From positions 62,001 to 126,000 of IMG/VR virus record IMGVR_UViG_3300022200_000019: 64,000 nt of DNA. One strand, written 5' to 3'. This DNA is from a virus. Below, piece after piece: positions 35,760-50,389 of this stretch. Position 1 is the first letter of the stretch; the number at the start of each line of letters is the position of its first letter. The position numbers were made by a program, and so were the translations under genes. The notes under the pieces are model-generated. The model searched no databases, was not told where the DNA came from, and worked only from the letters and a program-made list of their open reading frames with translations.

Positions 35760-36959
35760 ATGTCACAAACAAATACAGAAACAAGTATTAACGAATGTAG
35801 TTTTTGCGGTAAAGCAAAGGAAGAAGTAGTCAAACTTATCGTCGGCGATGGTGTTAGTATTTGTAATAACTGCGTAGAGTTTTGTGTTGAGTTATTAGAA
35901 GAAGAAAAACCTATTAATAAACAAAAACACGAAGCAAAAGATATTGATCCAGTGGAACTTAAAGAGTATTTAGATCAGTTTGTCATTGGGCAGGAGCAAG
36001 CCAAGATGGTGTTAAGTGTTGCTGTTGCTAATCATTATAAACGTATCAACAAAAAAGGTGATGTTAAAGTTGATAAAAGTAATGTATTATTACTTGGCCC
36101 CACCGGGTCAGGTAAAACGTTACTTGCTAAGTCAATTGCTGAATATTTAGACGTACCATTTGCTATTGCTGATGCTACATCATTAACAGAAGCAGGCTAC
36201 GTAGGGGACGATGTTGAAGTATTAATTAGCCGTTTACTACAAAATGCAAATGGCGATGTAGAACGTGCGCAACGTGGTATTGTGTTCGTTGATGAAATTG
36301 ATAAAATTTCACGCAAGTCCGAATCTGCTAGCGTAACACGAGATGTATCTGGTGAGGGCGTGCAACAAGCATTACTTAAAATGGTAGAAGGCACGGTTGT
36401 GCGTGTTCCTAATACCGGCAATAGAAAACACCCAGCCGGAGAAATGACCGAAGTTGATACCAAAAACATTTTGTTCATTGCTGCTGGTGCATTTGTTGGA
36501 TTAGATGAAATTCTTAAAAAGCGTGTACAGGGTGCTGGTATCGGATTTGGAGCAGATGTTAATCGTGTTGATACTACTAAAGTCGACCTATTGCCAGCAG
36601 ATTTAATCAAGTTTGGACTTATCCCAGAATTTGTAGGACGGTTTGCTAGTTTTGCTTTTGTACAAGAACTTTCTCGTGAAGACATGGTATATATTTTAAC
36701 TAGTGTTGAAAACAGTCTATTGCGTCAATTTGAATATTTGTTTAAGTGTAATGAAGTTGAATTAGAATTTGATCCAGAAGCATTGTTGTTAGTTGTAGAT
36801 AAAACAATTGAACAAAAAACTGGCGCACGTGGATTGCGAGCAGAATTAGAGAAGGTATTGTTGCCGCATATGTTTAATTTAGTGCGCTATCACAAAAATA
36901 ATATAAAAAATGTGGTTATTTCTAGGGATTTAATAAATACACCTATAGCATTATTATAA
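35760..36959 (+). CDS. clpX: ClpX ATP-dependent unfoldase
   Basis: A 399-residue AAA+ protein with every ClpX landmark. The N-terminal C4 zinc domain (CSFCGK, CNNC) is followed by Walker A GPTGSGKT (near 116), pore loop AGYVGDD, Walker B VFVDEIDK, an RKH loop (GNRKHPAGE) and the ClpP-docking IGF loop (GAGIGFGAD). It unfolds tagged proteins and feeds them to ClpP. Because zinc domain and docking loop are intact, it could work with phage ClpP (55803) or host ClpP. Confidence 0.95.
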
Positions 36960-36962
36960 ATA
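36955..36962 (+). promoter_or_regulatory. late promoter, exact TATAAATA, leaderless type
   Basis: TATAAATA overlapping the clpX stop and ending exactly 6 nt before the bS21 ATG at 36969. There is no ribosome-binding site between. Confidence 0.6.
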
Positions 36963-36968
36963 CACTCG

Positions 36969-37202
36969 ATGATCAAACCAAAAGGCACAAAAGTATACGT
37001 AAAAGACGGCAATGTTGAAAAAGCATTGCGTAAACTAAAAAAGAAAGTACAGCGAGGCAACGTACTTCAAGAAGTTAAAGAACGTCAAAGTTACGTACAA
37101 CCATCACAAAAACGTAAAGCCGCTAAAGAAGCAGCAAAGCGACGTTGGGCAAAACACGTTCGTTCGCAAGAATTACCAGTAAAACCTCGCGGTAAGTGGT
37201 AG
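36969..37202 (+). CDS. rpsU: ribosomal protein bS21 homologue
   Basis: A 77-residue basic protein. GTKVYVKDGNVEKALRKLKK matches the bS21 start (KVTVRNNNVEQAIRVLKRK). RQSYVQPSQKRKAAKEAA then RRWAKHVR matches the SEKRKRE region and basic tail. bS21 sits by the anti-Shine-Dalgarno end of 16S rRNA and affects initiation. Phage copies are known in marine phages, including pelagiphages. An exact late box 6 nt upstream predicts a leaderless late mRNA. Confidence 0.88.
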   Translation: MIKPKGTKVYVKDGNVEKALRKLKKKVQRGNVLQEVKERQSYVQPSQKRKAAKEAAKRRWAKHVRSQELPVKPRGKW

Positions 37203-37203
37203 A

Positions 37204-37815
37204 TTGGATCCAAACGTTTATTACTTTACCGGGTATAACGAAAAAACCGGAAATTGTAAATTTTTCTATGTGCCGATTCCTAAAAATGGAAGCACGTCAA
37301 TTCCATATATACTTCCAGAATCAACTTTAATTATTAGCAATGAAGATGAAATTTTATTAGATGCTACAGCACTAATTATTCTTCGGGATCCAATTGAACG
37401 TTGGTTTTCTGGGATTGCTCAATTTTATCATGCTGAAAGATTTAATAACAAATTTTTAAAAGATGATTTATTAGATTCAATATATAATCGTGCAATTAAT
37501 GACATTGCGTTAGACCCCCATACATATATACAAACAAGTTTTTTTAAAGATATACAATGTCAAGGACATATATTTTTTTATATGCTTGATAAATTTAAAA
37601 CCAACTCAAAGAAATGGCGAGCGAAAAATAACATTCACTTTCATTTTGACAAATGGGAGAATTTAAATAATTCAAAAAGTTCAATAACAAAAATTAAAAT
37701 GATTAACTATCTAAAACAACGAGTTACAGCTCAGGATTTAAAAAAAATACGTGATTATTACGCCGACGATTATTTGATTATTAATCTTGTAAAAGAATTG
37801 ACAAAATATTCTTAG
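37204..37815 (+). CDS. sulfotransferase family protein
   Basis: A 203-residue protein from TTG at 37204. FFYVPIPKNGSTSI near residue 20 is the PAPS 5'-phosphate loop of sulfotransferase_2 enzymes. LIILRDPIERWFSGIAQFYH near residue 58 is the 3'-phosphate motif. The substrate, probably a glycan or lipid of the host surface, is unknown. It is AT-rich and follows bS21 by 1 nt, the pattern of cargo genes attached behind core genes. Confidence 0.72.
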   Translation: MDPNVYYFTGYNEKTGNCKFFYVPIPKNGSTSIPYILPESTLIISNEDEILLDATALIILRDPIERWFSGIAQFYHAERFNNKFLKDDLLDSIYNRAINDIALDPHTYIQTSFFKDIQCQGHIFFYMLDKFKTNSKKWRAKNNIHFHFDKWENLNNSKSSITKIKMINYLKQRVTAQDLKKIRDYYADDYLIINLVKELTKYS

Positions 37816-37826
37816 TTTGTTATAAT
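37798..37826 (+). promoter_or_regulatory. consensus sigma70 promoter of hsp20
   Basis: TTGACA at 37798-37803, exactly 17 bp, TATAAT at 37821-37826. It starts inside the 3' end of the sulfotransferase gene. Confidence 0.85.
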
Positions 37827-37831
37827 ACAAG

Positions 37832-37839
37832 GATAAATA
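37832..37839 (+). promoter_or_regulatory. late promoter box of hsp20
   Basis: GATAAATA just downstream of the sigma70 promoter, giving hsp20 a possible second, late start. Confidence 0.45.
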
Positions 37840-37843
37840 ATAT

Positions 37844-37868
37844 TGTAGACGCCAGGGTTGGGTCTACA
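37844..37868 (+). promoter_or_regulatory. 5' UTR stem-loop of hsp20
   Basis: TGTAGAC pairs with GTCTACA around an 11-nt loop in the hsp20 leader, about 37 nt before the ATG. It does not cover the AAGGAG site as drawn, so it may be a stability element rather than a simple thermometer. Confidence 0.4.
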
Positions 37869-37904
37869 TACAAAAATAGACTTGCTTAATTTAAGGAGAC
37901 TAAC

Positions 37905-38336
37905 ATGACAAATCTATCTACATTCGACTTCTCACCTCTTAACCGTAGCGCCATTGGCATTGACCGCCTAATGAGTCATATGGTTCGTAACTTTGAATCT
38001 ACACAGCAGGACAACTATCCTCCATACAATATTGTTGAAGATAGTGAAAATGAGTTCACACTCGAAATTGCTGTTGCTGGTTTTAAGAAAGGTGATATCT
38101 CAATTACTTCACAAGACGGACAGCTAACTGTTTCTGGTGAAAAACAAGCGGAAGATACTCGCAAGTACACCTGGAACAAAATTGCTACACGCAAGTTCAG
38201 CCGTTCGTTCACATTAGGTGAATACGTTGAAGTAACCGGTGCTTCTCAAGAAGATGGCATTCTTTCTATTAAGTTAGAACGCATTGTTCCAGAAGCAATG
38301 AAGCCAAAAACTATTGCTATTGACTACAAAGGGTAA
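37905..38336 (+). CDS. Hsp20 small heat-shock protein
   Basis: A 143-residue alpha-crystallin-type chaperone. The beta-sandwich core is YNIVEDSENEFTLEIAVAGF through KFSRSFTLGEYVEV. The C-terminal IAI (in KTIAIDY) is the IxI motif used for oligomer contacts. AAGGAG precedes the ATG. Hsp20 holds unfolding proteins and is common in marine T4-like phages, where help with head or tail assembly is suspected. Both early-type and late-type promoters are present. Confidence 0.93.
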   Translation: MTNLSTFDFSPLNRSAIGIDRLMSHMVRNFESTQQDNYPPYNIVEDSENEFTLEIAVAGFKKGDISITSQDGQLTVSGEKQAEDTRKYTWNKIATRKFSRSFTLGEYVEVTGASQEDGILSIKLERIVPEAMKPKTIAIDYKG

Positions 38337-38353
38337 TATAATGCAGTAACAGG

Positions 38354-38379
38354 ATAGGGAGGGTAATCCTCCCTATTTT
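38354..38379 (+). terminator. rho-independent terminator after hsp20
   Basis: A 9-bp stem, ATAGGGAGG with CCTCCCTAT, 5-nt loop, then a short T run. Confidence 0.85.
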
Positions 38380-38409
38380 GTTAAATATTAGTATAACAGG
38401 AGAATGGAT

Positions 38410-38718
38410 TTGTCTACTCAAGTTGAAACCAGAACAAGAATCAAGCCAAACATTGCACTGCAAGAACCGCCTATGTTTAAGGTAATCTACCTAAATGATG
38501 AACAAACCAGTATGCAGTTTGTTATTGATAGCCTTGTAGACTTTTTTGATTATGCACCTATTAGTGCTGAAAAGATCACAGAAGATATTCATGTACAAGG
38601 CTCAGCAGTTGTAGCAGTGTTGCCATACGAAATGGCAGAACAAAAAGGCATTGAAGTAACCGTAAGTGCTCGCAGCAACGGTTATCCACTACAAGTCAAG
38701 CTAGAACCCGAAGAATAA
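38410..38718 (+). CDS. clpS: ClpS adaptor
   Basis: A 102-residue protein. FKVIYLNDEQTSMQFVIDSL is the N-degron-binding face of ClpS. DIHVQGSAVVAVLPYEMAEQ then EVTVSARSNGYPLQVKLEPEE is the rest of the fold. ClpS delivers proteins with destabilising N-termini, normally to ClpA. The TTG at 38410 lies 7 nt after AGGAG. An ATG at 38404 is only 1 nt from it and so is less likely to be used, although it is in frame. No ClpA is seen in the window. Confidence 0.88.
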   Translation: MSTQVETRTRIKPNIALQEPPMFKVIYLNDEQTSMQFVIDSLVDFFDYAPISAEKITEDIHVQGSAVVAVLPYEMAEQKGIEVTVSARSNGYPLQVKLEPEE

Positions 38719-38721
38719 CAC

Positions 38722-39087
38722 ATGTATATTATCGTTGGCGAAGATGCTGCCTCACAGGTAGATACCAAATATCTGGTTTTTGAATTAGATACCATTCTTT
38801 ATAATAAAAATGAAGCCCCACTTAAAAGTTATTGTGTTGTTGACAATGAACATGTTCCCTTAATTGAGGTTAATCGAATCGGTGAACTACAAGAACTACA
38901 TCAAAATTTAATTAAAAATTATCATAAACGTAACTGGAATTTTTGCTTACAAGCAATTGAACATCTGAAAGGAAAATTTCGTGGCGAATTAGATACATTT
39001 TATGATGATTTGGAAAAACGCTGCTCGGTATTTCAACAATTCGAACCGCCCGCAAACTGGACTGGTGTTTACGATAAGACCAAGTAA
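38722..39087 (+). CDS. conserved phage hypothetical protein
   Basis: A 121-residue protein starting MYIIVGEDAASQ, with a central EVNRIGELQELHQNLIKNYH helix and a C-terminal QQFEPPANWTGVYDKTK. I recall similar short proteins in T4-like marine phages. No catalytic or membrane feature is seen. It follows clpS by 3 nt and is probably in the same operon. Confidence 0.6.
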   Translation: MYIIVGEDAASQVDTKYLVFELDTILYNKNEAPLKSYCVVDNEHVPLIEVNRIGELQELHQNLIKNYHKRNWNFCLQAIEHLKGKFRGELDTFYDDLEKRCSVFQQFEPPANWTGVYDKTK

Positions 39088-39117
39088 TATACGCCGTTTA
39101 TCATCATAAAACCCCTA

Positions 39118-39125
39118 TATAAATA
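39118..39125 (+). promoter_or_regulatory. late promoter of the curli cassette
   Basis: An exact TATAAATA 27 nt before the csgF-like TTG start. It makes the whole curli cassette look like a late operon. Confidence 0.68.
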
Positions 39126-39152
39126 CTAGGACAAGTAGAATGGGGGTTCAAC

Positions 39153-39644
39153 TTGAAAAGCAACGACGATGGCCTTGCGGCTATTGTAGCAATTATTCTA
39201 ACAGTAATCTTTGTACTGTTTACATTTAAAGCAGAGGCAGGTGAGTTAACTCACCAGTTTCATAGTCCTGCGTTCAGCGGCAATGGGTATAGTACCCACG
39301 TCCTAACTATAGATCAGTTAGAACAACAACGTAAGCAGAAAATAAAAGACGACGAACAAGCCGCTATTGATAAAGCAGAACGAGACGCTAAATCAACTAA
39401 TATCTACAAGTTTAAGAACAACTTAGAAAGTCGTGTTTACGCACAACTATCTAAGCAAATTGCAGACGCTCTTTTTGGCGAAAGCAGTAATTTAGCAGAC
39501 ACAAGTTGGTCGGAAGTAGAAACCCCATTCGGTGATACCATTAAATGGAAACGTGAGAACGATATTGTATATGTTGAAATATACGATAGCAATGGCGATT
39601 TAGCCTCTGAGTTCCAGACACCGGTTGGGGATTTCGCATTTTGA
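39153..39644 (+). CDS. csgF: CsgF-like curli assembly protein
   Basis: A 163-residue exported protein. A signal peptide (GLAAIVAIILTVIFVLF, cut near AEA-G) leads to GELTHQFHSPAFSGNG, which matches the CsgF start TMTFQFRNPNFGGNP. DQLEQQRKQK then fits the NSAQAQN segment, and a basic helix and small C-terminal domain follow. In curli systems CsgF plugs into the CsgG channel and anchors the nucleator outside the cell. The start is TTG with a GGGGG site 6 nt upstream. It overlaps csgG by 4 nt. Confidence 0.8.
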   Translation: MKSNDDGLAAIVAIILTVIFVLFTFKAEAGELTHQFHSPAFSGNGYSTHVLTIDQLEQQRKQKIKDDEQAAIDKAERDAKSTNIYKFKNNLESRVYAQLSKQIADALFGESSNLADTSWSEVETPFGDTIKWKRENDIVYVEIYDSNGDLASEFQTPVGDFAF

Positions 39645-40483
39645 CACGCTTAATTCTACTACTACTCGCTGCTGGTATACTTGGAGGGTGCGTAGCAAAC
39701 CCGCCTAAACAGTACGAACCCCCATCTCGAATTGTAACTCACGTTGAAGGATTTATGGATATCCCGCCTCCTAGTGGCGGTAAACTTGTTGCGGCTGTAT
39801 ATGGTTTTCAAGATAAAACTGGACAGCGTAAACCCTCTGACAAACTTGCGAATATTAGTTACGCAGTAACGCAAGGTGCTGAAGTATGGGTTATTAAAGC
39901 CCTCAAGGAAGTGGGCGGAGGAGAATGGTTTAGAGTTGTAGAGCGTGTTGGATTAGACAATTTAACAAAAGAGCGTCAAATTATCCGACAAGCACGTCAG
40001 CAAGTTAATGACGAAACACCTCTTAAACCAATGCTGTTTGCTGGTGTGTTAGTTGAAGGAGCCATCACTGGTTACGACTCTAACACGTTAACCGGCGGAG
40101 CAGGAGCCAGATACTTAGGTATTGGTCCAAGCACAGAATACCGCCAGGATGTGGTAACTGTGAGTATGCGGTTAATAAGCGTTCAAAGTGGAGAAGTCTT
40201 ACTTAATACAAGTGTTACTAAAACTATTGTTAGTTTTGGCGATCACGTAAGTTTGTTCCGGTTTATTGATATGGGAACAAAGGCACTTGAGCTAGAATCA
40301 GGAACCACTGAAAACGAGCCGGTGAACTATGCTGTTCGTGTAGCAATCGAACAATGTGTAGTTGAACTGGTTAAAGATGGCGAACGCATAGGTATTTGGT
40401 CATATAAGACTCACGAAGAAGGAGCCAATGATACTAAAGAAGAAGTAAAGACGGATGAAAACTCCGTGCGTGGAGAAAAATAA
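39641..40483 (+). CDS. csgG: CsgG-like outer-membrane curli secretion channel
   Basis: A 280-residue lipoprotein: LILLLLAAGILGGC is a signal with a lipobox Cys. The body matches CsgG: VAAVYGFQDKTGQRKP, YAVTQGAEVWVIKAL, WFRVVERVGLDNLTKERQII, then GVLVEGAITGYDSN and a SVSMRL-like strand pair that would form the barrel. CsgG makes a nonameric pore that exports amyloid subunits. Length is close to E. coli CsgG (277). It starts with TTG overlapping the csgF stop, and its own stop overlaps the next ATG. Confidence 0.92.
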   Translation: MTRLILLLLAAGILGGCVANPPKQYEPPSRIVTHVEGFMDIPPPSGGKLVAAVYGFQDKTGQRKPSDKLANISYAVTQGAEVWVIKALKEVGGGEWFRVVERVGLDNLTKERQIIRQARQQVNDETPLKPMLFAGVLVEGAITGYDSNTLTGGAGARYLGIGPSTEYRQDVVTVSMRLISVQSGEVLLNTSVTKTIVSFGDHVSLFRFIDMGTKALELESGTTENEPVNYAVRVAIEQCVVELVKDGERIGIWSYKTHEEGANDTKEEVKTDENSVRGEK

Positions 40484-41172
40484 TGCGCAAAATATTATAT
40501 GTCCTATTAGGACTTTGGAGTTCAACAGTATTTGCCAGTGACGTGTATATTGATCAAGCAGGTTCAAGTACAACTATTGATATTACACAAACTGGTTCAA
40601 GCAACGAAGTTAGCGGCGACGCTGGCACTACAACTGCGGCAAGTGTAGATGGTACAGGTATTGACTTGGACATTACACAAATTGGTTCAAGCAACATAGC
40701 AGAAATTAACTTAGATACTGCTACAAGTGCTGACGTAGAATATACTGCTACAGGTAGTGATAACTTGTTTGACATTTATGTTAATGGTGGTTCCTCAAAT
40801 ACTGCTACAGTAAACGTTACTGGTGACAGCAACGAAGTAACAATTTGTGGAACCAATGGAGCAGCAAACTCAGCAGCAGGCTTTGCTACTATTACAAGTT
40901 CGGGCATAACTACTGCTGGAACAACTTGCTCAACAGGCATTGCGAGTAATGGTAACACTAATACTGTTACTGCGTATGGCGACTATAACTTAGTTAACAT
41001 TGAGCAAGGAGCAGGTGTTGGTGGATCAACTAACACAGTTACCATTGGCACAGCACTAGCAGGCGGCGATAACAACGTTGTAAACATTGTACAGGATAAC
41101 TTGGAAGCAAATACCGTAACATTAACAGTTGACGGTAGCAGCAACCGTGTCAATATTTTACAAGATAACTAA
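40483..41172 (+). CDS. curlin-repeat protein (CsgA/CsgB-like subunit)
   Basis: A 229-residue exported protein. The signal peptide ends near VFA-S. The mature part is a set of curlin-type repeats with Ser, Asn, Ile and Gln patterns: DVYIDQAGSSTTI, DITQTGSSNEVSG, DITQIGSSNIAEI, NVTGDSNEVTI, NIVQDNLEANTVTL and RVNILQDN. This is the strand-turn-strand amyloid layout that CsgG exports. A Cys pair lies in a less regular middle segment. It is larger than E. coli CsgA (151). It is coupled to csgG by TAATG. Confidence 0.85.
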   Translation: MRKILYVLLGLWSSTVFASDVYIDQAGSSTTIDITQTGSSNEVSGDAGTTTAASVDGTGIDLDITQIGSSNIAEINLDTATSADVEYTATGSDNLFDIYVNGGSSNTATVNVTGDSNEVTICGTNGAANSAAGFATITSSGITTAGTTCSTGIASNGNTNTVTAYGDYNLVNIEQGAGVGGSTNTVTIGTALAGGDNNVVNIVQDNLEANTVTLTVDGSSNRVNILQDN

Positions 41173-42262
41173 TTTCCTACTGATAGGGTTGTTCTCAGTA
41201 TCAGCCCTGGCAGCAATAGGAACTATCACAGAGCAACAGGGTCCTGATGCTCAACTTAAACGCGACAGTGAAACTATAGTTGCTCGCAAAGGCACTGGTC
41301 TTGAAATGGATGACGAAGTAAGAACGGCAGCAACTAAACTTAATTTAACATTTGAAGATGATACAAAGGTAGCAATGACTGAACAAAGTGTATTGCTTAT
41401 TGATGACTTTGTTTACGATCCCAATGCTAAAACTGGCAAACTAGCGATGCAAGTAGCAATGGGCACAGTTCGTTATGCGTCAGGCGGCATTGCTAAGAAC
41501 AACAGAGAAAACGTTCGTATGCGCACACCAACAGCAACCATATCAGTACGCGGTACTGACTTTGCTATGGTTGTAGACGAAGTTGGCCGTAGTCTAGTAA
41601 CATTACTCCCCAGTTGTCCAGACTTTGGTTTAGTAGAAAACAAAGATGATGAAGAAAAATGTCCAGTTGGTGAGATTATGGTAAGCACAGATGCTGGGTA
41701 TGTATTAATGAATCAAGCATACCAAACTACAATTGTAGCAAGTGCGTTACAAGAGCCAACGAAACCCAAAATTTTAGACGATAAGCCAACATTAAACAAC
41801 TTGCTTATTATTTCGCCACCGCCTCAATTCCCACGTGGGTTTGACTCAGCAGAAGAAGAAGCACAACAAGTTACATTCTTAGATGCTGACTTGTTAGAGT
41901 TTGATGACTTAGCACAGGATTTATTAGCAGACGATAGTTTAGAGCAAAATGACTTGGATCAAGATAAACTAGAAGGCGAGTTTTTAGATGACATGTTAAT
42001 GATGTTATTAGATCCGGGATTGGATGACGCACTCAAAGAACGTGATGGTGTATTGCCGACCTTAGCAGATTATCCTTGGGTAAAAGGTTATTACAACGAA
42101 CAAGAAATTACAGTTTATTCTGAACGCCCACCACACATTGCGGAAATTAAAACAACTCGCGATACAGACGCAGATGTAGTTATTACGCAGGACGGTGTAA
42201 AAGCAACTATTATTGAGAACGGAGGCGGCAATGTTATTATCAACATTACGCAAACTCAGTAG
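41147..42262 (+). CDS. exported FecR-domain protein with curlin-like tail
   Basis: A 371-residue protein read from GTG at 41147 (a TTG at 41129 is also possible). A signal peptide (KITNFLLIGLFSVSALAA) leads to a FecR domain, seen in AMGTVRYASGGIAKN, then RMRTPTATISVRGTDFAMVVD. An acidic Leu-Asp repeat region follows (270-310). The last 20 residues (TIIENGGGNVIINITQTQ) look like one curlin repeat. FecR-type proteins often sit beside CHASE2 cyclases. It starts inside the curlin gene and overlaps the next one, so it is part of the operon. Confidence 0.8.
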   Translation: MSIFYKITNFLLIGLFSVSALAAIGTITEQQGPDAQLKRDSETIVARKGTGLEMDDEVRTAATKLNLTFEDDTKVAMTEQSVLLIDDFVYDPNAKTGKLAMQVAMGTVRYASGGIAKNNRENVRMRTPTATISVRGTDFAMVVDEVGRSLVTLLPSCPDFGLVENKDDEEKCPVGEIMVSTDAGYVLMNQAYQTTIVASALQEPTKPKILDDKPTLNNLLIISPPPQFPRGFDSAEEEAQQVTFLDADLLEFDDLAQDLLADDSLEQNDLDQDKLEGEFLDDMLMMLLDPGLDDALKERDGVLPTLADYPWVKGYYNEQEITVYSERPPHIAEIKTTRDTDADVVITQDGVKATIIENGGGNVIINITQTQ

Positions 42263-43571
42263 TCTATTATTCTTATTTGCTACAACTGTGTGGGCAGATA
42301 GTGTTCTCATCATTCACCAAAACTACTCCAGTGTTCATTCCAATGTCGGCGGACGTCTAACTAACGAAGGGCATACGGTAACTTACTCTACATCAGAAGT
42401 AAATGCTAGTACTATTGCCAACTACAATCAAGTTTGGGACGTAAGGTATAGTTCGCTGTCAAGCACACAGGCATCAGTGTATGACACGTTTGTTCAGAAT
42501 GGAGGATTCTTATACTTAGTAACAGAGAATCCAAGTTGTTGCGGTACACGAAATAGTGCTGTTGCTTCAATGATATCTAATATGGGCGGCGGCAGTGGAT
42601 TAACGATTGGTGGAAGTGCTGGTTCAACTTCAAACAATATCACACAGGTTAATACAACTTATATGACTGCTTTGTCATCAGGAACTTATATTACATTTGC
42701 CGCAGGTAGTAACATCACAAACTATGGCAACGGACAATGGTTGTTCAAAGATAGCATTGGTAGAGTTGGCGGCGTTATGTGGGTAGGCAATGCTGGAAAC
42801 TTGTCACAAGGGTACTCGGGCACGGTAGTCACGGTTGCTGACATCAACTGGTTAGATGCTACTCGTTTTACAGGAACAAACATCACAGCCTTAGACGATA
42901 TTATCGCAGGTATTGTTGCTGGTACCGTATCAGGTACTATCAGTGGAAGTGGAAACACTGGCGGCGGAGCAGCCGCAACACCTGTGTACAGTTCAGGCAT
43001 AACAGCCGCACAAACCCTAAGAAGAAATGCATTCACAGGAACAGGTGCGGAGATAAATGCTGATATCAACGGTAGTAACAATGATGTTTATATACATCAA
43101 GCAGGAACGCATTATATAGAACTTGGGATAGTAGGAAGTTCAAATACAGTTAACTTAGAGCAAGCATCAACTCAAGTAGGAATCATACATTACGCAGAGA
43201 CAGATATCATCGGCGATAGCAATACATTAGATTTGATACAATCCGGTGATGGCAATAAAACAGCATTTATTACAGTAACAGGTGATAACAATATAGCAGA
43301 TATCGCACAGCGCGATAGCGGACAGCATTATCTACAACTTGATTTAATAGGTGGTGGTCATGATGCCACTGTAGTACAAGAAGGTACAGGCAATCACGCA
43401 GCCACAGTAGAGTTAACAAACTCGGGTGGAGCCTGGACATTTGGGTTGACACAATCAGGCAGTACGGATAAAGAATATAGTTTACCGCACTCAATGAGTG
43501 ACGGTAGCACAACAAGCGGAACGTGTTATGTAGCAGCAGGATGCTCGTTAACAGTCATACAAAGTGATTAA
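42231..43571 (+). CDS. two-domain exported protein with C-terminal curlin repeats
   Basis: A 446-residue protein. The ATG at 42231 has GGAGG 5 nt upstream. A signal peptide (LSSLLFLFATTVWA) is followed by a domain of about 240 residues starting SVLIIHQNYSSVHSN, with YLVTENPSCCGTRNS in it. That domain resembles a flavodoxin- or amidotransferase-like fold in outline only. A Gly/Ser linker leads to curlin-type repeats (DINGSNNDVYIHQAG, GIVGSSNTVNLEQAS, DIIGDSNTLDLIQSGDGN). It may be an adhesin or minor curli component. Confidence 0.75.
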   Translation: MLLSTLRKLSSLLFLFATTVWADSVLIIHQNYSSVHSNVGGRLTNEGHTVTYSTSEVNASTIANYNQVWDVRYSSLSSTQASVYDTFVQNGGFLYLVTENPSCCGTRNSAVASMISNMGGGSGLTIGGSAGSTSNNITQVNTTYMTALSSGTYITFAAGSNITNYGNGQWLFKDSIGRVGGVMWVGNAGNLSQGYSGTVVTVADINWLDATRFTGTNITALDDIIAGIVAGTVSGTISGSGNTGGGAAATPVYSSGITAAQTLRRNAFTGTGAEINADINGSNNDVYIHQAGTHYIELGIVGSSNTVNLEQASTQVGIIHYAETDIIGDSNTLDLIQSGDGNKTAFITVTGDNNIADIAQRDSGQHYLQLDLIGGGHDATVVQEGTGNHAATVELTNSGGAWTFGLTQSGSTDKEYSLPHSMSDGSTTSGTCYVAAGCSLTVIQSD

Positions 43572-43600
43572 CTCTGTATATTTCTAACTGTTTGATTAAT

Positions 43601-43608
43601 AATAAATA
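43601..43608 (+). promoter_or_regulatory. late promoter box, leaderless type
   Basis: AATAAATA ending 6 nt before the ATG at 43615. Confidence 0.5.
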
Positions 43609-43614
43609 TCTTTA

Positions 43615-44025
43615 ATGAAAAAATTGGTGTGTGCGGCACTTGCTGTATACTGCTTAAATGTTACAGCACACAGTCGCGATGATTATGAATACATAAACTG
43701 GAATTCATTTCGTGTTTATGAAGAAATAGAAAAACGCCCAAAACTTGATGTTTTTGCTGGGCATAGTGTTGGTTTTGGTTACACACAAAAGTATAATCAA
43801 ATTGATACACTTGTTGTAGGCGAAGTAGGTGGCGCTCATAGCCGCTGGCTAGGCCCTAGAACTCAATTATACACAGAAGCAAATGTAGCAACAGACTTGT
43901 TTACAGAAGCAAAAGTAAACATCAATCATTTTAACAACAAATATTCAGTTACAAGATTTGTTCTACGCAAAGACAACACTGACCAAGGTGGCTTTGTTGG
44001 ATTTGGTTATATGCGTCGTTTTTGA
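43615..44025 (+). CDS. small exported envelope protein
   Basis: A 136-residue protein with a signal peptide (KKLVCAALAVYCLNVTAHS) and a mature part of alternating strands. It contains FAGHSVGFGYTQKYNQ and ends VGFGYMRRF. A C-terminal aromatic residue in a strand is the usual signal for outer-membrane barrels, so a small barrel or periplasmic curli accessory is possible. It is not an obvious CsgE or CsgC. It has its own late box. Confidence 0.6.
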   Translation: MKKLVCAALAVYCLNVTAHSRDDYEYINWNSFRVYEEIEKRPKLDVFAGHSVGFGYTQKYNQIDTLVVGEVGGAHSRWLGPRTQLYTEANVATDLFTEAKVNINHFNNKYSVTRFVLRKDNTDQGGFVGFGYMRRF

Positions 44026-44039
44026 CACTAAATATCCGT

Positions 44040-46082
44040 ATGAAGAAACTACTGAGTCCATGGTGGGCATTGATTACCTTATTTGTTCTCACGGCTGTAT
44101 TTTTACAACGTCCTAACTTTACTGAAAGTATCAAATTAAATTACTTTGACACACTTATTACTAGTAGAGAAGCAGTAGACAATAACATTTATATTGTTAA
44201 TATTGACGAAGCCGCACTAGAGAAATATGGTCAGTATCCTTTTCCACGTAACATTTACGGCGACATTATCAAAGACATTTACAATCGTGGCGCTGGATTA
44301 GTTATTTGGAATATTATGATGCCGGAAGCAGATCGCTTTGGCGGAGATGAACAGTTAGCAGGAGTTATGACTGAATTTCCTGTTATATTAGCAAGCCGCC
44401 CCTCTGTCAAAAATAAAAATGTTCCAATGCAACCGGCATCAAATACAATCAATGCACAGTATGTGGATCAGTTATTTCCTTATCCAGGTATTATTTCAAA
44501 TATTCCAGAACTTGAACAAGTAGCAGTAGGCTCTGGTATTGTTTCAACTGAACCTGAAATCGATGGCGTTAACAGAAGATTACCAGCACTTGCTGTGGTT
44601 GGTGATTTGGTGTATCCAGGTATTGCTCTTGAAACACTTCGTGTTATTGCAGGACAACCTAGTTTTGATGTTAAACTAGCACCTAATGGTATTGATAAAT
44701 TTAGAATACGTGGTCACGGACCTATTGCTACAGATGAAATGGGACGTATTTGGATTGATTGGGCACAGCGTAGCAAACAGGTTAGCGTAATCAATATGCC
44801 TGCAGACTTTGGCGGCGCAGTAGTTATCGTAGATGTGACTGCGGCAGGCATTGCTAACCCTGTTCCTACAGCGTTAGGAGCAAAATTTCCCGGTGAAGTT
44901 CACTCAGCAATGCTAGGAACAATGTTTAATAAAACAAATATTCAACGTCCATACTGGGCAGATACATTTGAAATTCCTGCGGCATTTTTAGCAGGACTAT
45001 TATTAATTTTAGTATCACGTTGGACCTGGCTAGGACTAGGATTAACTGTTGTGCTTGGCGGTGCTGTTGTCCCTGCGTCAATGTATATGTTTGACACAGA
45101 ACTATTTTTGTTAGACGCAACAGGTCCTCTTGCAATTATTGTCCTTGTGGCATTACACACATACGGTATTAAATTTGTACGTGAGTTCTTAGAAAAGCAA
45201 GCAATCAAGAAACAGTTTGCCGGTTACTGCTCACCGGAAGTTGTTCGTTTATTACAAGAAAACCCGGATCTTATTAAGAAGGGTGTTAAGAAAGACGTAA
45301 GTGTTATGTTCTCAGATTTGCGCGGCTTTACTCCAATTGGCGAACACTTTGGCGCAGACGTTAAAGGTTTAGGAGATTATATGAATGGCTATATGGATGC
45401 TATTACGCAGCCTATCCTAAATCACAACGGTATGGTTATTAAGTATGTAGGTGACGCAAGCATGCACATACAAGGTGCGCCTATTGAAGATGACAGACAC
45501 GCATACAACATTGTCGAAACAGGCTTACAAATGTTAGACGCTGTTGACGCTTATACACGAGAAGCAGAAGCACGTGGTTTGCCACCAGCAGCAATGGGTT
45601 TCGGCATTAACTCAGGCGAAGGCTTTATTGGTGAAATGGGCAGCACAGCAAGACACAGTTATGACATCTTAGGCGATATGGTTTCAACAGCGGCTCGATT
45701 AGAAGCACGTTGTAAAGCATATGGTGTGCTATGTATCATTGGCGCAGAAACATACAACAGAACAGCGGATGACTTCTTCTACTTATATCTGGACAATTTA
45801 CAACCAAAAGGCAAAACAGTAGCAGATTTCATTTATACAGCGTTACGCATCAAAGGAAATATCACGGACTATGGCACTGCACGTGAGTTACATAATAATA
45901 TGCATCAAGCATATAAAGAAAGAGATTTTGATAAAGCAATTGGTATGTGCATGGGCCTGAAAGGTGAATTTGACGGGCAAATGGACAAATATTATAAAAT
46001 GTGGATTGAACGTTGCGAATTAATGAAGACCATGAAATTAGATAAGAGCTGGAATGGCGAGTGGATTGCTAACGAAAAATAA
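44040..46082 (+). CDS. CHASE2-domain class III adenylate/guanylate cyclase
   Basis: A 680-residue protein from the ATG at 44040, 5 nt after a TAAATA box. One N-terminal membrane helix, a periplasmic CHASE2 sensor (about 30-300), three membrane helices (310-385) and a cytoplasmic class III cyclase follow. Both metal Asp are present (VSVMFSDLRGFT near 425, KYVGDASMH near 470). GINSGEGFIGEMGS and SYDILGDMVSTAARLEA follow. The usual transition-state Asn of GDxVNxAxR is Ser here. It makes cAMP or cGMP, if active. Confidence 0.9.
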   Translation: MKKLLSPWWALITLFVLTAVFLQRPNFTESIKLNYFDTLITSREAVDNNIYIVNIDEAALEKYGQYPFPRNIYGDIIKDIYNRGAGLVIWNIMMPEADRFGGDEQLAGVMTEFPVILASRPSVKNKNVPMQPASNTINAQYVDQLFPYPGIISNIPELEQVAVGSGIVSTEPEIDGVNRRLPALAVVGDLVYPGIALETLRVIAGQPSFDVKLAPNGIDKFRIRGHGPIATDEMGRIWIDWAQRSKQVSVINMPADFGGAVVIVDVTAAGIANPVPTALGAKFPGEVHSAMLGTMFNKTNIQRPYWADTFEIPAAFLAGLLLILVSRWTWLGLGLTVVLGGAVVPASMYMFDTELFLLDATGPLAIIVLVALHTYGIKFVREFLEKQAIKKQFAGYCSPEVVRLLQENPDLIKKGVKKDVSVMFSDLRGFTPIGEHFGADVKGLGDYMNGYMDAITQPILNHNGMVIKYVGDASMHIQGAPIEDDRHAYNIVETGLQMLDAVDAYTREAEARGLPPAAMGFGINSGEGFIGEMGSTARHSYDILGDMVSTAARLEARCKAYGVLCIIGAETYNRTADDFFYLYLDNLQPKGKTVADFIYTALRIKGNITDYGTARELHNNMHQAYKERDFDKAIGMCMGLKGEFDGQMDKYYKMWIERCELMKTMKLDKSWNGEWIANEK

Positions 46083-46382
46083 TTAAGGGTGGAAATTACC
46101 TTGGAAACAATGGCGTATTTCGTGCCCAAATATTTCGTGTGAAGTATGCTTATTTGTGTAAACAACACATGATTTGCCATCTATCGACACAGTAGCACAG
46201 CCTAACCACCCATCATATCTGTACGGTAATCCAACCTTTTCGCAATGCTCTGTAATATCGCCAGCAGTAATCCAGGTGATAGTTATTGACTGTGAATCTG
46301 GTTTTTGAACGAATTGAACATCCTGACCAGCGTAAGCCATTGAAGATAAACAAAATATAGTAGGTATAATTACCTTTCTCAT
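46083..46382 (-). CDS. exported small protein with zincin motif
   Basis: A 99-residue protein with a signal peptide (KVIIPTIFCLSSMAYA). The mature part contains four Cys and GHEIRHCFQGNFH, an HExxH zinc-metallopeptidase motif with another His 7 residues on. It is very short for a peptidase, so it might be a minimal envelope protease or only a metal-binding remnant. It ends back-to-back with the cyclase gene. Its ATG is 6 nt from a late box, and it closes the leftward membrane cassette. Confidence 0.6.
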   Translation of the reverse strand: MRKVIIPTIFCLSSMAYAGQDVQFVQKPDSQSITITWITAGDITEHCEKVGLPYRYDGWLGCATVSIDGKSCVVYTNKHTSHEIFGHEIRHCFQGNFHP

Positions 46383-46388
46383 CTAATT

Positions 46389-46396
46389 TATTTATT
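46389..46396 (-). promoter_or_regulatory. late promoter box, leaderless type
   Basis: AATAAATA on the minus strand, overlapping the stop region of the upstream gene and ending 6 nt before the ATG at 46382. Confidence 0.5.
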
Positions 46397-46775
46397 TCTT
46401 AGATGGAGGATTATTAACTGCTGCTTTTTCTGCTTGTCTGTGTAAGTTCTTTTCTTGTACTTTAGTTTGGTCGAACTGCTTACTAATTGAAGCATACTGA
46501 TCAACGATTGCTTGAGCATCTTCTTCTTTGATTTGGCCGTGTTTACCGTAGTATTCTAATACTATGCTTAACTTGGTGTTTAAGCGAATCATGTCATTAT
46601 CTAACATGCGGATACGGTCTACTAGAGCAATAAGTGTTTTCTTTGTATCGCCGATAACCGGATCAATTTCGTCGGTTACCCAACGCCATATAAAATACAC
46701 AAAATATCCAAGACCCATTGCGGCAATAACTGGAAAGCCGTATTCATTGATCGCTTGTACAATATCGTTAGGCAT
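46392..46775 (-). CDS. membrane protein with coiled coil, holin-like
   Basis: A 127-residue protein. Residues 12-32 (YGFPVIAAMGLGYFVYFIWRW) form one membrane helix. A coiled-coil helix follows (TKKTLIALVDRIRMLDNDMI), then a charged tail. It looks like a duplicated relative of the protein at 46993-47271 (GFPI-A-A---GYFV in both). One-helix proteins with a coil are seen among phage holin-like proteins, so a lysis role is possible. Its ATG overlaps the stop of the tiny gene upstream. Confidence 0.6.
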   Translation of the reverse strand: MPNDIVQAINEYGFPVIAAMGLGYFVYFIWRWVTDEIDPVIGDTKKTLIALVDRIRMLDNDMIRLNTKLSIVLEYYGKHGQIKEEDAQAIVDQYASISKQFDQTKVQEKNLHRQAEKAAVNNPPSKK

Positions 46776-46863
46776 ACAGTACTCCTACTAAAAAGCCAAC
46801 TATTAGGCCAGCAACAAATCCGGTTGCTAACAGTAATGTAAAATCACAACATTCTTTGTTCAT
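46768..46863 (-). CDS. 31-residue membrane protein
   Basis: A small gene: ATG at 46863, overlapping the stop of the preceding small gene (ATGA), and TAA at 46770-46768, inside the start region of the next gene. It encodes 31 residues, MNKECCDFTLL followed by a Gly-rich hydrophobic helix (ATGFVAGLIVGFLVGVLYA). The precise overlap on both sides supports it being real. A membrane role, possibly in lysis, is inferred. Confidence 0.55.
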   Translation of the reverse strand: MNKECCDFTLLLATGFVAGLIVGFLVGVLYA

Positions 46864-47000
46864 CTTCCTAGCATAGTCCCAATAAAAATACCAAGCATAA
46901 TACCTAGTGTAAACCCAATACCGCCGTATAACCTACGCATCGGTGCTTCTAGTTTATTTTGTGCTTCTAGATAAGCAAGTGTTGCTTGATGTTTAATCAC
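46860..47000 (-). CDS. 46-residue membrane protein
   Basis: A small gene starting with GTG at 47000 within the last codons of the upstream gene and ending TGA at 46862-46860, overlapping the next ATG. It encodes 46 residues: a polar start (KHQATLAYLEAQNKLEAP) and a C-terminal hydrophobic helix (GGIGFTLGIMLGIFIGTML). It is part of a four-gene overlapping membrane cassette on the minus strand. Confidence 0.55.
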   Translation of the reverse strand: MIKHQATLAYLEAQNKLEAPMRRLYGGIGFTLGIMLGIFIGTMLGR

Positions 47001-47271
47001 GCCGTGCGTCTTCCTTGCCTTCGTTAGCAGCGAGTCTATCTACATTTGGTCGTACACCAATTACATGACTCATAAGTGCGTCAATTTTAACTAAATCATT
47101 GTTCATTGTTTGAACACGGTTGTCCAATGCGTGAATAATGCCTTTAACACCGTTTACGTCACCGGTTACACCGGCTAAGATAAACTTAACTGTTAATAAT
47201 ACAAAATATCCTGCCGCCAATGCGCCGGCAATTGGAAAACCAACTTCACCAACTATTGCTAAAAAATCCAT
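46993..47271 (-). CDS. membrane protein with coiled coil, paralogue of 46392
   Basis: A 92-residue protein. Residues 5-32 (IVGEVGFPIAGALAAGYFVL) form a membrane helix, then a helical coil (IIHALDNRVQTMNNDLVKID) and a charged tail. It aligns by eye with the protein at 46392-46775. A GGGAG site and a minus-strand late promoter lie upstream, so it opens the late membrane cassette. Holin or anti-holin is possible. Confidence 0.6.
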   Translation of the reverse strand: MDFLAIVGEVGFPIAGALAAGYFVLLTVKFILAGVTGDVNGVKGIIHALDNRVQTMNNDLVKIDALMSHVIGVRPNVDRLAANEGKEDARRD

Positions 47272-47301
47272 ATAAACTCCCGTTATATGCTATGTTAACT
47301 T

Positions 47302-47309
47302 TATTTATA
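47302..47309 (-). promoter_or_regulatory. late promoter, exact TATAAATA
   Basis: TATAAATA on the minus strand, 30 nt before the ATG at 47271, with a GGGAG site between. It drives the leftward membrane cassette. Confidence 0.68.
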
Positions 47310-48615
47310 TGCAGATATCAAAAAGGTGCGGATAGGTTTTAATAATTTGATCAGCAAACGCAGGCTGCGTATTTTTTAAATGAGTTAAAATGCTTAAAAT
47401 ATCTTTTTTTGTATTAGGTAAAATTTTTCCAGTTTGCCGATATAAAAAATCTATTTGTTTAAACCGATTAACGTTTAATTCTCTACTATTTTGTTCTTCT
47501 AGTGCATTAGACATGTTTTGGTGTAATTCTTCAAGAATTTGCTGTTCAAACTTATCGCTGTAGAAATGACGGTGATTATGCTCGACTATTTGTTTTGCTT
47601 TGTTGAGTAAATTATTAAATTTATCAATTGGTAGGCTGCTTATTGTATGTATTAATTCTATGATTTTTTGATGCCTAACTTTAGAGTCTGCGATGTTATC
47701 ATAGCTCTCATCCCACAATGACTCAAATGTTTTAAATCCGTAATGTCTGAGATATTTCAAGCTACCAGGCCCCGCAAATAGTATGAAAGGCTGCTTCATA
47801 ACCATGGGTTTAAAAACTTTTTCAGTTAAATGAATTTTTTCGGTATCAAATAATGTTTCTAACACAATTTGTATCTGAAAGTTTTTGCAATCGTTTGGGT
47901 CAATTATAGCACTTGCGTCACTGCCGTGCTCATTTTTGGCTAGGTTCCAGGACAAAAAAATCTGTTGATTCGTTATTTGTTGTTGCATTGTTGGTTGTAT
48001 TTCGAAATAAACTTCGTTAGATACAGGCAACAAGTCATTTAATACATTGTAACGATACGCTCGTGTTCCGGTACAATCTCTGGAATACATTCCAAAACGT
48101 TGTGCATGATTGTTATTTTCCATGTCGTAATGTTTCCAATGTCTAAACCAATCTCTGCTGATTAAACCATGATAAAAATAATAGCAAGAAATAAAACCAT
48201 GGCGCTCAAGTAATTTAATCTCGTTGCTGTTTAATTCGCTATGACCGATGATTGAAGAATTAATGGTTGACAACATCATTATAAATTGTTTAAACTTTGA
48301 TAAATTTTCTGTATAAAGGTCATAGGCTTCTTGATCAAACCATTTTATTCTATTTTTTGAAATTGAGCTTTTGTCAATTTCAAATAATTCAAAATTTAAA
48401 GGTTCTTGGTCTAGCAAGTATATTCTACCATATAACCAATTGTGATTTAAATTATCGGTTTTATGCCTATGTATTTCTTCGTCACATAATGCAACCATAT
48501 TCCATAAATTTCGATTACCATGTTGGTTAAATGCATATACAAAGTTTTTGTTATTTTTATTTGGCCAACCATACTTGTGTGTTAAATAGTCATAAAAATT
48601 ATTAACGGAGAACAT
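47305..48615 (-). CDS. putative glycosyltransferase, TEK family member 3
   Basis: A 436-residue protein. ETLFDTEKIHLTEKVFKP then QPFILFAGPGSLKYLRHYGF and FESLWDESYDNI is the clearest copy of the family signature shared with 10305 and 17237. It resembles the donor half of GT10-like transferases. A C-terminal helical region follows (residues 330-430). Its ATG is 3 nt from the TTG of the divergent dehydrogenase gene, so the two must share or overlap control sites. Confidence 0.55.
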   Translation of the reverse strand: MFSVNNFYDYLTHKYGWPNKNNKNFVYAFNQHGNRNLWNMVALCDEEIHRHKTDNLNHNWLYGRIYLLDQEPLNFELFEIDKSSISKNRIKWFDQEAYDLYTENLSKFKQFIMMLSTINSSIIGHSELNSNEIKLLERHGFISCYYFYHGLISRDWFRHWKHYDMENNNHAQRFGMYSRDCTGTRAYRYNVLNDLLPVSNEVYFEIQPTMQQQITNQQIFLSWNLAKNEHGSDASAIIDPNDCKNFQIQIVLETLFDTEKIHLTEKVFKPMVMKQPFILFAGPGSLKYLRHYGFKTFESLWDESYDNIADSKVRHQKIIELIHTISSLPIDKFNNLLNKAKQIVEHNHRHFYSDKFEQQILEELHQNMSNALEEQNSRELNVNRFKQIDFLYRQTGKILPNTKKDILSILTHLKNTQPAFADQIIKTYPHLFDICI

Positions 48616-48618
48616 ATT

Positions 48619-49875
48619 TTGAAACCTACTATTGCGTTTATTGGATTAGGAAAATTGGGATTAGACTGTGCTGAAGTTTTTGCCACTAAGTACGAAACAT
48701 GTGGTTACGATATTTACCCACGAACTAGCAACAGTGTGAAAGTTTATGAGACTGTGGAAGAAACTGTGGGGGCAGCAGATTGGATTTTTATTGCGGTACC
48801 AACGCCACATTCAATGTGTTATGATGGTTCAGTACCAAGTGCGCACCTGGAGCCAAAAGACTTCGGGTATGATGATGTTAAAAATGTATTAACACAAATC
48901 AATGAATATGCGGATGCAAGCAAGAATATTGTATTAATTTCTACAGTACTTCCAGGCACAACACGTCGTGAGTTCGATCATCTACTAAATAATCATACAT
49001 TGATTTATAATCCATATTTGATTGCTATGGGTAGCGTAAAATGGGACATGGTAAATCCAGAAATGGTTATTATTGGCAGTAAAGACGGCAATGATCCACG
49101 TGTAGCTGAACTCATTGAAATTTATAAGCCTCTTATGGAGAACAATCCCCGTTACGAAACGGGCACATGGGAGGAAGCAGAAGGTATTAAGATTTTCTAT
49201 AATACTTATATTAGTGCTAAAATTGGTATTGCTAACATGATTCAAGACTTTGCTATGAAGATTGGCAATATGAATGTTGATGTAGTAACAGAAGCACTAG
49301 CAAACGCACGTATTCGTTTACAATCACCAAAATACATGACTGCTGGCATGGGCGATGCAGGTGCTTGCCACCCACGTGATAATATTGCACTACGCTGGTT
49401 AGCACAAGAGTATGATTTAGGTTATGACATGTTCTCAACTATCATGGGCGCACGTGAAATTCAAGCAAAGAATATGGCTAACTTCTTAGTAGCACAAGCA
49501 GAAAGTGAAGGTATTAATACAGTTGCTATTCACGGTAAAGCATATAAGCCTAATGTAGAGTATACCATTGGTTCATATTCAACGCTAGTAGGTCATTATG
49601 TAGCAGAAGCAGGTTTACCTGTTGTTTATTTAGACCCACTGGCAGATAACAAAACTGATGTTGTTGATACATTAGATGAACCTGTGGTATTATTGCTAGC
49701 ACACAATCGTCAAATTACATATGGCTATGTGACAGAATTCTCAAATGATGATTTGACTGATGGCTTCTATACAAATATCCCAGCAGGTTCAGTAATTGTT
49801 GATCCGTGGAGAGACATAGATGTTAATAACGAGGATTATAAAGTAGTACATTATGGCAATACCAGAAATCAGTAA
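48619..49875 (+). CDS. UDP/GDP-sugar dehydrogenase
   Basis: A 418-residue enzyme starting with TTG at 48619 after an ACGGAG site. IAFIGLGKLGLDCAEVF is the NAD-binding Rossmann motif. FIAVPTPH, STVLPGTTR and the DAGACHPRDNIALRWLA segment (catalytic Cys) follow. It would oxidise a nucleotide sugar to the uronic acid form for capsule-type glycans. The family usually has 390-450 residues. It is followed by an overlapping oxygenase gene. Confidence 0.85.
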   Translation: MKPTIAFIGLGKLGLDCAEVFATKYETCGYDIYPRTSNSVKVYETVEETVGAADWIFIAVPTPHSMCYDGSVPSAHLEPKDFGYDDVKNVLTQINEYADASKNIVLISTVLPGTTRREFDHLLNNHTLIYNPYLIAMGSVKWDMVNPEMVIIGSKDGNDPRVAELIEIYKPLMENNPRYETGTWEEAEGIKIFYNTYISAKIGIANMIQDFAMKIGNMNVDVVTEALANARIRLQSPKYMTAGMGDAGACHPRDNIALRWLAQEYDLGYDMFSTIMGAREIQAKNMANFLVAQAESEGINTVAIHGKAYKPNVEYTIGSYSTLVGHYVAEAGLPVVYLDPLADNKTDVVDTLDEPVVLLLAHNRQITYGYVTEFSNDDLTDGFYTNIPAGSVIVDPWRDIDVNNEDYKVVHYGNTRNQ

Positions 49876-50389
49876 AGGATTTATGTGGGTTGCGGGCCAT
49901 GTTGACCCCTGGTGGGATAAAATGCATCGCGGATTAAACTATCATCGCGAACCATTTAATAATCCTGCAGATACAGAAATGTGGCGCAAAATGGGATTTA
50001 CACATGAGCATTTCACTGGCGAAATGTACGACATGAAAAATCCAGAACCACCTTGGATGAATATGAAAAAATTCCAAGAAGTGTTTAATTTCGAGCATTT
50101 GTCTTGGAGTTTCTATAAAATGACACCCGGTGTAATTTTACCAGAGCATGTAGATACATTTAGTAGGTTTAAGAAGATTCACAATACAAAAGGTAAAACT
50201 GTTGTTCGTGCGTTAGTAATGATGGAAGACTGGCAACAAGGACATTACCTAGACATGGATGGCAAAGCAATCACAGATTGGAAAGCAGGCGATTATGCTA
50301 TCTGGACAGAACGTTGTCCCCATACTGCTGCTAATATTGGCAGTACTGATCGTTATACACTACAGCTAACTGGATTAGTTACACTATGA
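49853..50389 (+). CDS. 2OG-Fe(II) oxygenase-like protein
   Basis: A 178-residue protein. PEHVDT (HxD) near residue 102 and CPHTAANIG (distal His) near residue 158, then RYTLQL with a likely 2-oxoglutarate-binding Arg, form the double-stranded beta-helix active site. It resembles aspartyl/asparaginyl hydroxylase-type enzymes. The target might be a glycan precursor or a tail protein. It overlaps the dehydrogenase by 23 nt and the amidinotransferase by 4 nt. Confidence 0.7.
   Translation: MAIPEISKGFMWVAGHVDPWWDKMHRGLNYHREPFNNPADTEMWRKMGFTHEHFTGEMYDMKNPEPPWMNMKKFQEVFNFEHLSWSFYKMTPGVILPEHVDTFSRFKKIHNTKGKTVVRALVMMEDWQQGHYLDMDGKAITDWKAGDYAIWTERCPHTAANIGSTDRYTLQLTGLVTL

Follow-up and report, generated by a model that had tools for sequence, protein, structure and literature searches.

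The gene studied here was found to encode a CHASE2 class III nucleotide cyclase in which two active-site positions differ from those of its relatives. The second purine-selecting residue is Asp, and Ser occupies the place of the usual transition-state Asn. This double change is fixed and marks a single phage clade. The product is probably an adenylyl cyclase of the inner membrane, encoded by the phage, that carries a phage-specific variant of the active site and may sense the envelope. The window, meaning the whole 64-kb stretch that was analysed, comprises bases 62001–126000 of a 212,917-bp virus record, which also contains phage helicases, a DNA ligase and a class I ribonucleotide reductase.

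The ATG-started open reading frame specified 680 residues, and an alternative in-frame TTG at 44022 fell inside the end of the preceding gene, with which it would overlap. The features of the gene and its operon are given in Table 1. An N-terminal extracytoplasmic CHASE2 domain and membrane helices preceded the cyclase, as in other CHASE2 cyclases. The Pfam Guanylate_cyc profile matched across residues 417–563 (E 1.7e-15), and profile matches to PDB entries reached E 3.6e-45. The catalytic domain modelled alone with AlphaFold2 had a pLDDT of 88.6 and a pTM of 0.88. The cyclase core was poor in the full-length model, and the fold search therefore rests on the catalytic-domain model, for which the best Foldseek matches in the PDB were the class III cyclases 6fht, CyaC (1wc3) and CyaB (3r5g). 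Cya2 was matched as well, and the TM score reached 0.87 by target. A class III fold is thus predicted with good confidence. The helical extension at the C-terminus was found in the family with Asp and Ser (hereafter D/S), whereas the cyclase of phage HTVC008M stops at residue 611 and does not carry it.

Table 1. Features of the cyclase gene, its product and its operon (positions in the window).
Feature	Position	Strand	Evidence or conservation
CsgF-like	39153..39644	+	Pfam E 8.4e-14
CsgG-like outer-membrane curli secretion pore	39641..40483	+	Pfam E 1.9e-50
Curlin-repeat protein 1	40483..41172	+	Pfam E 9.2e-07
FecR-domain protein, phrog_37870	41129..42262	+	Pfam E 7.3e-09
Curlin-repeat protein 2	42213..43571	+	Pfam E 1.1e-06
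Small exported outer-membrane-like protein, between curlin gene 2 and cyclase	43615..44025	+	sequence
CHASE2 + class III nucleotide cyclase, phrog_35576	44040..46082	+	ORF, Pfam, PHROG
N-terminal transmembrane/signal-anchor helix, aa 7-23	44058..44108	+	AlphaFold2 helix 7-23; hydrophobic sequence
Periplasmic CHASE2 sensor domain, aa 15-321	44082..45002	+	PF05226 E 3.7e-30; pLDDT about 90
Membrane helices + signalling helix, aa 307-390	44958..45209	+	AlphaFold2 helices 307-327, 329-354, 361-393
Class III cyclase catalytic domain, aa 389-606 (predicted)	45204..45857	+	PF00211; AF2 pLDDT 88.6; Foldseek CyaC/CyaB/6fht
Asp426, metal ligand (FSDLRGFT)	45315..45317	+	invariant
Lys468, purine-selecting (KYVGDASM)	45441..45443	+	invariant
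Asp472, metal ligand (KYVGDASM)	45453..45455	+	invariant
Asp542, second purine-selecting residue (SYDILGD)	45663..45665	+	invariant; Ser/Thr, rarely Arg, in cellular relatives
Ser549, transition-state Asn position (GDMVSTAARLE)	45684..45686	+	invariant
Arg553, transition-state Arg	45696..45698	+	invariant
C-terminal helical extension, aa 607-680	45858..46079	+	found in D/S family

The six catalytic positions did not vary in any of 45 sequences, comprising the window gene and 44 viral loci. Both metal Asp residues and Arg553, which are features of class III enzymes, were present, and Ser549 stood in place of the usual transition-state Asn in 45/45. The adenylyl type of purine pair (Lys with Asp, Thr or Ser) was found as K468 and D542, again in 45/45. 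The reading of the earlier note was confirmed in these respects by Pfam and by the residues themselves: the family, both metal ligands and the Arg were correctly assigned, the change from Asn to Ser is real and recurs in phage Melnitz, and so is the Asp of the SYDILGD motif. Three phage contigs that had been wrongly binned with bacterial genomes also have Ser at this position. The spacing of seven between D542 and S549 and of four between S549 and R553 equalled that of D157, A164 and R168 in the mycobacterial cyclase Ma1120 (PMC4215837), and Ser549 is therefore in register with the catalytic Asn.

The Ser549 codons (n = 45) were divided between TCN (30) and AGY (15). A change from one serine box to the other requires two base changes. 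On a tree built from the domain DNA with the Ser549 codon removed, parsimony gave at least seven switches between the boxes, four of which were forced by well-supported branches; recombination could explain part of the switches. Chance, an error of sequencing and an isolated mutation were ruled out by the 45/45 invariance across two codon boxes. The median dN/dS was 0.051 for the cyclase half versus 0.148 for the sensor half, so that the catalytic half is under strong purifying selection, the stronger of the two. According to the invariance, the codon-box switches and the low dN/dS, the Ser has been kept by selection. Such selection is evidence of function, not of turnover.

The residues of cellular and viral relatives were surveyed with profiles of the viral protein minus the motif (residues 1–530) or of the catalytic domain. 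The genomes profiled were 399 Pseudomonadota, 294 Planctomycetota and 385 of one class, in overlapping samples; the cellular survey thus covered Pseudomonadota and Planctomycetota. Among the best cellular loci (about 85), the transition-state position was always Asn and never Ser. The purine site of the same loci was Ser or Thr, with Arg in one small group, and never Asp. All 79 readable viral cyclases of the HTVC008M type combined a purine-site Ser with a transition-state Asn (hereafter S/N). Hence, the possibility raised by the earlier note, that Ser is common at this place in CHASE2 cyclases, was ruled out within the sampled phyla.

The D+S motif was searched for in the 399 Pseudomonadota genomes, where it occurred only in two phage contigs and no cellular source was found. 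As a positive control, 150 genomes were searched with a looser DNA motif in which both positions could vary, and 81 of them gave a match. Among the matches listed for this looser motif, only those two phage contigs lacked Asn, and Asp stood together with Asn in a single cellular match. When the whole bacterial genome collection was scanned with the viral profile, only phage contigs binned into metagenome-assembled genomes were matched. FZLS01000092.1, JADHSL010000081.1 and FZLS01000023.1 (L048, L049 and L050, respectively) were phage contigs with the curli–FecR–cyclase module, binned into one Rhodobacteraceae and one Pirellulales genome assembly.

The trees of the two halves of the protein were compared. 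In the catalytic tree, the D/S clade (support 100) and the S/N clade (99) were separate. The D/S stem was long (1.85), and the geometry of the active site may differ accordingly. In the sensor-half tree, every viral CHASE2 domain fell in one clade (100/100); moreover, Melnitz (L046) and L049, both D/S, grouped with 42 S/N rows (100/100), apart from the group of the window gene. The two trees disagree, and therefore catalytic domains have been swapped beneath a sensor, and within an operon, that both kinds of phage share. The presence of D/S and canonical domains in the same operon slot argues that they do the same job. In our view, no other indirect evidence argues as well for a D/S domain that works as a cyclase with the same product. 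Within the window-type family, loci L002–L004 were 72% identical to the window gene in the sensor and 68% in the cyclase, and most other loci were about 50% and 83% identical, respectively. This discordance between the halves points to recombination within the gene.

In mammalian cyclases, the loss of the transition-state Asn cuts the rate strongly, and work by Yan and colleagues from 1997, cited in PMC4215837, is said to have found both Asn and Arg important in these enzymes. The earlier note had expected the change from Asn to Ser to slow catalysis, as in known cyclases. In the usual class III enzymes, the Asn contacts the ribose (PMC3591389). Ma1120 of Mycobacterium avium, which has Lys101, Asp157 and Arg168 and, in the position of the Asn, Ala164, is nevertheless an active adenylyl cyclase, and its activity was drastically lowered by the mutation A164N (PMC4215837). 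It is unsafe to call the phage enzyme weak because of its Ser, since an enzyme without the Asn is active and is harmed when the Asn is restored; the expectation of the earlier note found no support, the change being both fixed and selected. Ma1120 shares with the phage enzyme the pair of Lys and Asp, the Arg, the absence of Asn and the spacings. However, Ma1120 carries Ala instead of Ser and is only remotely related, with E 3e-4 against the phage profile, and PMC4215837 describes no CHASE2 context for it.

A crippled or near-dead cyclase, in which Ser549 cuts turnover and the protein serves mainly as a CHASE2 sensor, a scaffold or a low-output device, was considered in this light. Asn is the residue that some 85 cellular and some 80 other viral cyclases have at this place, which would fit such a loss, as would the mammalian findings. 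However, the metal, purine and Arg residues were invariant in 45/45, although a pseudoenzyme would be expected to drift; furthermore, dN/dS was lowest in the catalytic half, and the Asn is dispensable in Ma1120. A near-dead enzyme is therefore unlikely.

With regard to the substrate, Lys with Asp is the classical ATP (adenine) pair. Asp542 argues for ATP and not for a new substrate because of this pairing, and the suggestion in the earlier note that the Asp might point to another substrate found no support: the deviants are the cellular relatives with Lys and Ser or Thr. Conversion of ATP to cAMP by the phage enzyme is probable. Another product, such as cGMP, or cCMP or cUMP as in Pycsar, might instead mimic or disturb host signalling or defence. 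The substrate-contact and transition-state positions changed together on one branch, and the PADLOC PycC models matched the domain with a best E value of 6.4e-15. However, the S/N enzyme of HTVC008M fitted the PycC models better (9.8e-25), which indicates that the matches reflect the shared cyclase domain, and GTP enzymes typically have Glu with Cys or Gly at the purine-selecting places (PMC3591389, PMC4215837), in contrast to the adenine pair found here. Another product is thus quite improbable. Membership in Pycsar was itself rejected, the PycC matches being at the domain level only and weaker than those of the canonical enzyme; a Pycsar PycC is a cCMP/cUMP cyclase adjacent to PycTM or PycTIR, whereas the neighbours here were curli and FecR genes.

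The genes from CsgF to the cyclase were co-directional and mostly overlapped or nearly so, with the cyclase last. CsgF, CsgG, curlin repeats, FecR and the cyclase thus formed one co-directional block like the module of pelagiphages and Melnitz, as judged against loci L046 and L047. No counterpart of the small exported protein ahead of the cyclase turned up in the related loci that were fetched. CsgG, FecR and curlin repeats were found nearby in 33 of the 41 window-type loci with enough DNA; most of the misses were cut contigs, and L014, with nearly 8 kb available upstream, was a true exception. In some loci (L023, L025, L034, L037, L038, L041 and L043), the curli and FecR genes were near the cyclase, not upstream on the same strand, and their order differed.

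On the other side of the cyclase and convergent to it, tandem genes on the minus strand (46392–46775 and 46993–47271) encoded small proteins of phrog_18771 with a single membrane helix, one of which had a weak holin match. A 436-aa protein without a family match (47305–48615, minus strand) lay beside a UDP-glucose dehydrogenase (48619–49875), and the two are possibly a sugar-modification locus. No Rfam element was found within 36000–50000 and no tRNA in the 64-kb window, and promoter and terminator matches were no more frequent than in shuffled sequence. A metallophosphoesterase as a cAMP-hydrolysing partner was sought and rejected, having no match in this record.

FecR and the cyclase are no part of bacterial curli operons (PMC9599517). 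A FecR domain, detected with the Pfam profile, nevertheless lay within 20 kb of a CHASE2 cyclase in at least 25 of 50 bacterial genomes, mostly adjacent, compared with a chance expectation of about 3% per cyclase. A phmmer search of these cellular neighbours with the phage FecR gave no match. In about a dozen of these genomes, the FecR domain headed a giant ORF (996–5575 aa) upstream of the cyclase; directly upstream examples were seen in G289, G037, G367, G337, G387, G219, G161, G202 and others, and the bacterial pairs often adjoin giant surface-repeat proteins. In Sinorhizobium meliloti, cyaK lies directly 3' of a FecR gene. FecR and a CHASE2 cyclase are thus a recurrent bacterial pair in their own right. 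A related arrangement is found in the CHASE2 cyclase–FecR–TPR–phosphodiesterase clusters of Campylobacterota, which combine a FecR outer-membrane protein with a CHASE2 cyclase (PMC9239204) and are cellular and chromosomal; the passage on them describes no curli genes.

These observations bear on what the cyclase might sense. The link of CHASE2 to curli and FecR is one of gene order only, and the sensing of an envelope event tied to the FecR and curli products is a tentative proposal, somewhat less likely to hold than to fail. A module that acts as a lysis-timing or pore device, with the cyclase reporting the state of the envelope to time lysis and not to control fibres or host metabolism, is very unlikely. 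In its favour, CsgGF was proposed as a lysis pore by the Melnitz authors (PMC9004378), and the two phrog_18771 single-membrane-helix proteins, one weakly holin-like, lie just downstream on the opposite strand. However, this phage and most of its relatives have both curlin-repeat genes, for which a pore alone would have no use, and in cells FecR is paired with a CHASE2 cyclase in the absence of CsgG.

For the adenylyl cyclase favoured here, the periplasmic CHASE2 domain would sense an envelope event, most likely one tied to the FecR and curli-fibre products of the same operon. The signal would cross the membrane helices to the class III catalytic domain, which would dimerise. ATP would then be converted to cAMP with the two metal Asp residues, Lys468 and Asp542 selecting the adenine, and Arg553 with Ser549 would replace the pair of Arg and Asn around the ribose and the alpha-phosphate. 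No match to a cNMP-binding domain (cNMP_binding) was found in this record and 13 related phage records. Because no receptor was found in these 14 phage records, we infer that the cAMP would act on host receptors, as we infer the activity, the product, the signal and the downstream effect. It is rather unlikely, although worth stating, that the purine-site Asp and the transition-state Ser are co-adapted and work together as an alternative class III site, which arose once in phages and has its own kinetics or regulation, coupled to an envelope sensor of FecR and curli built by the phage; if this were true, the site might, for example, be insensitive to a control that the host exerts on ordinary cyclases.

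The gene, its family (phrog_35576) and the operon are already known. The curli module has been published in pelagimyophages (PMC7029224) and in Melnitz (PMC9004378), a 141-kb T4-like marine phage of OM43, and the order CsgF–CsgG–curlin–FecR–curlin–adenylate cyclase is explicit in Pelagibacter podo- and myophages (PMC9599517). The earlier note had called a membrane sensor cyclase rare in lytic phages, which it is not: at least 585 viral stretches were confirmed to be of the HTVC008M type, and the module is published (PMC9599517). The Melnitz cyclase (MZ577098, gp104; PMC9004378) stands in the same gene order and is 45% identical to the window protein over 99%; its core, SYDVLGDSVSTAARIE, has Asp and Ser as in the window protein, but in its CHASE2 half it groups with the HTVC008M type. 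The HTVC008M-type pelagiphage cyclases (KC465899; PMC9599517) share the CHASE2 sensor clade and the curli–FecR operon, whereas their catalytic domain is of the other clade, with the canonical core DYSVIGDAVNLAARLE. The bacterial CHASE2 adenylyl cyclase CyaK of S. meliloti has the same layout of CHASE2 and class III domains at about 25% identity over 98%, and its core, FDYSALGDAVNLASRLE, has Ser and Asn, in contrast to Asp and Ser in the phage. PMC9004378 is silent on the cyclase of Melnitz, and the catalytic residues are unmentioned in the phage curli-module papers PMC7029224, PMC9004378 and PMC9599517. The fixed core of Asp and Ser, and its exchange with the canonical domain under one sensor, therefore appear to be undescribed.

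Few signalling enzymes have been studied as much as the class III cyclases, whose Asn–Arg pair is treated as near-essential. In the lineage of this large aquatic phage, a two-residue change in that active site has become fixed. Sister phages carry the canonical domain with the same sensor and operon, and a comparison of the two makes the necessity of the Asn directly testable. Moreover, the published and unexplained curli module of phages gains a signalling frame, in which an envelope-sensing pair that was captured, FecR and a CHASE2 cyclase, seems to have been linked by the phage to a fibre secretion system.
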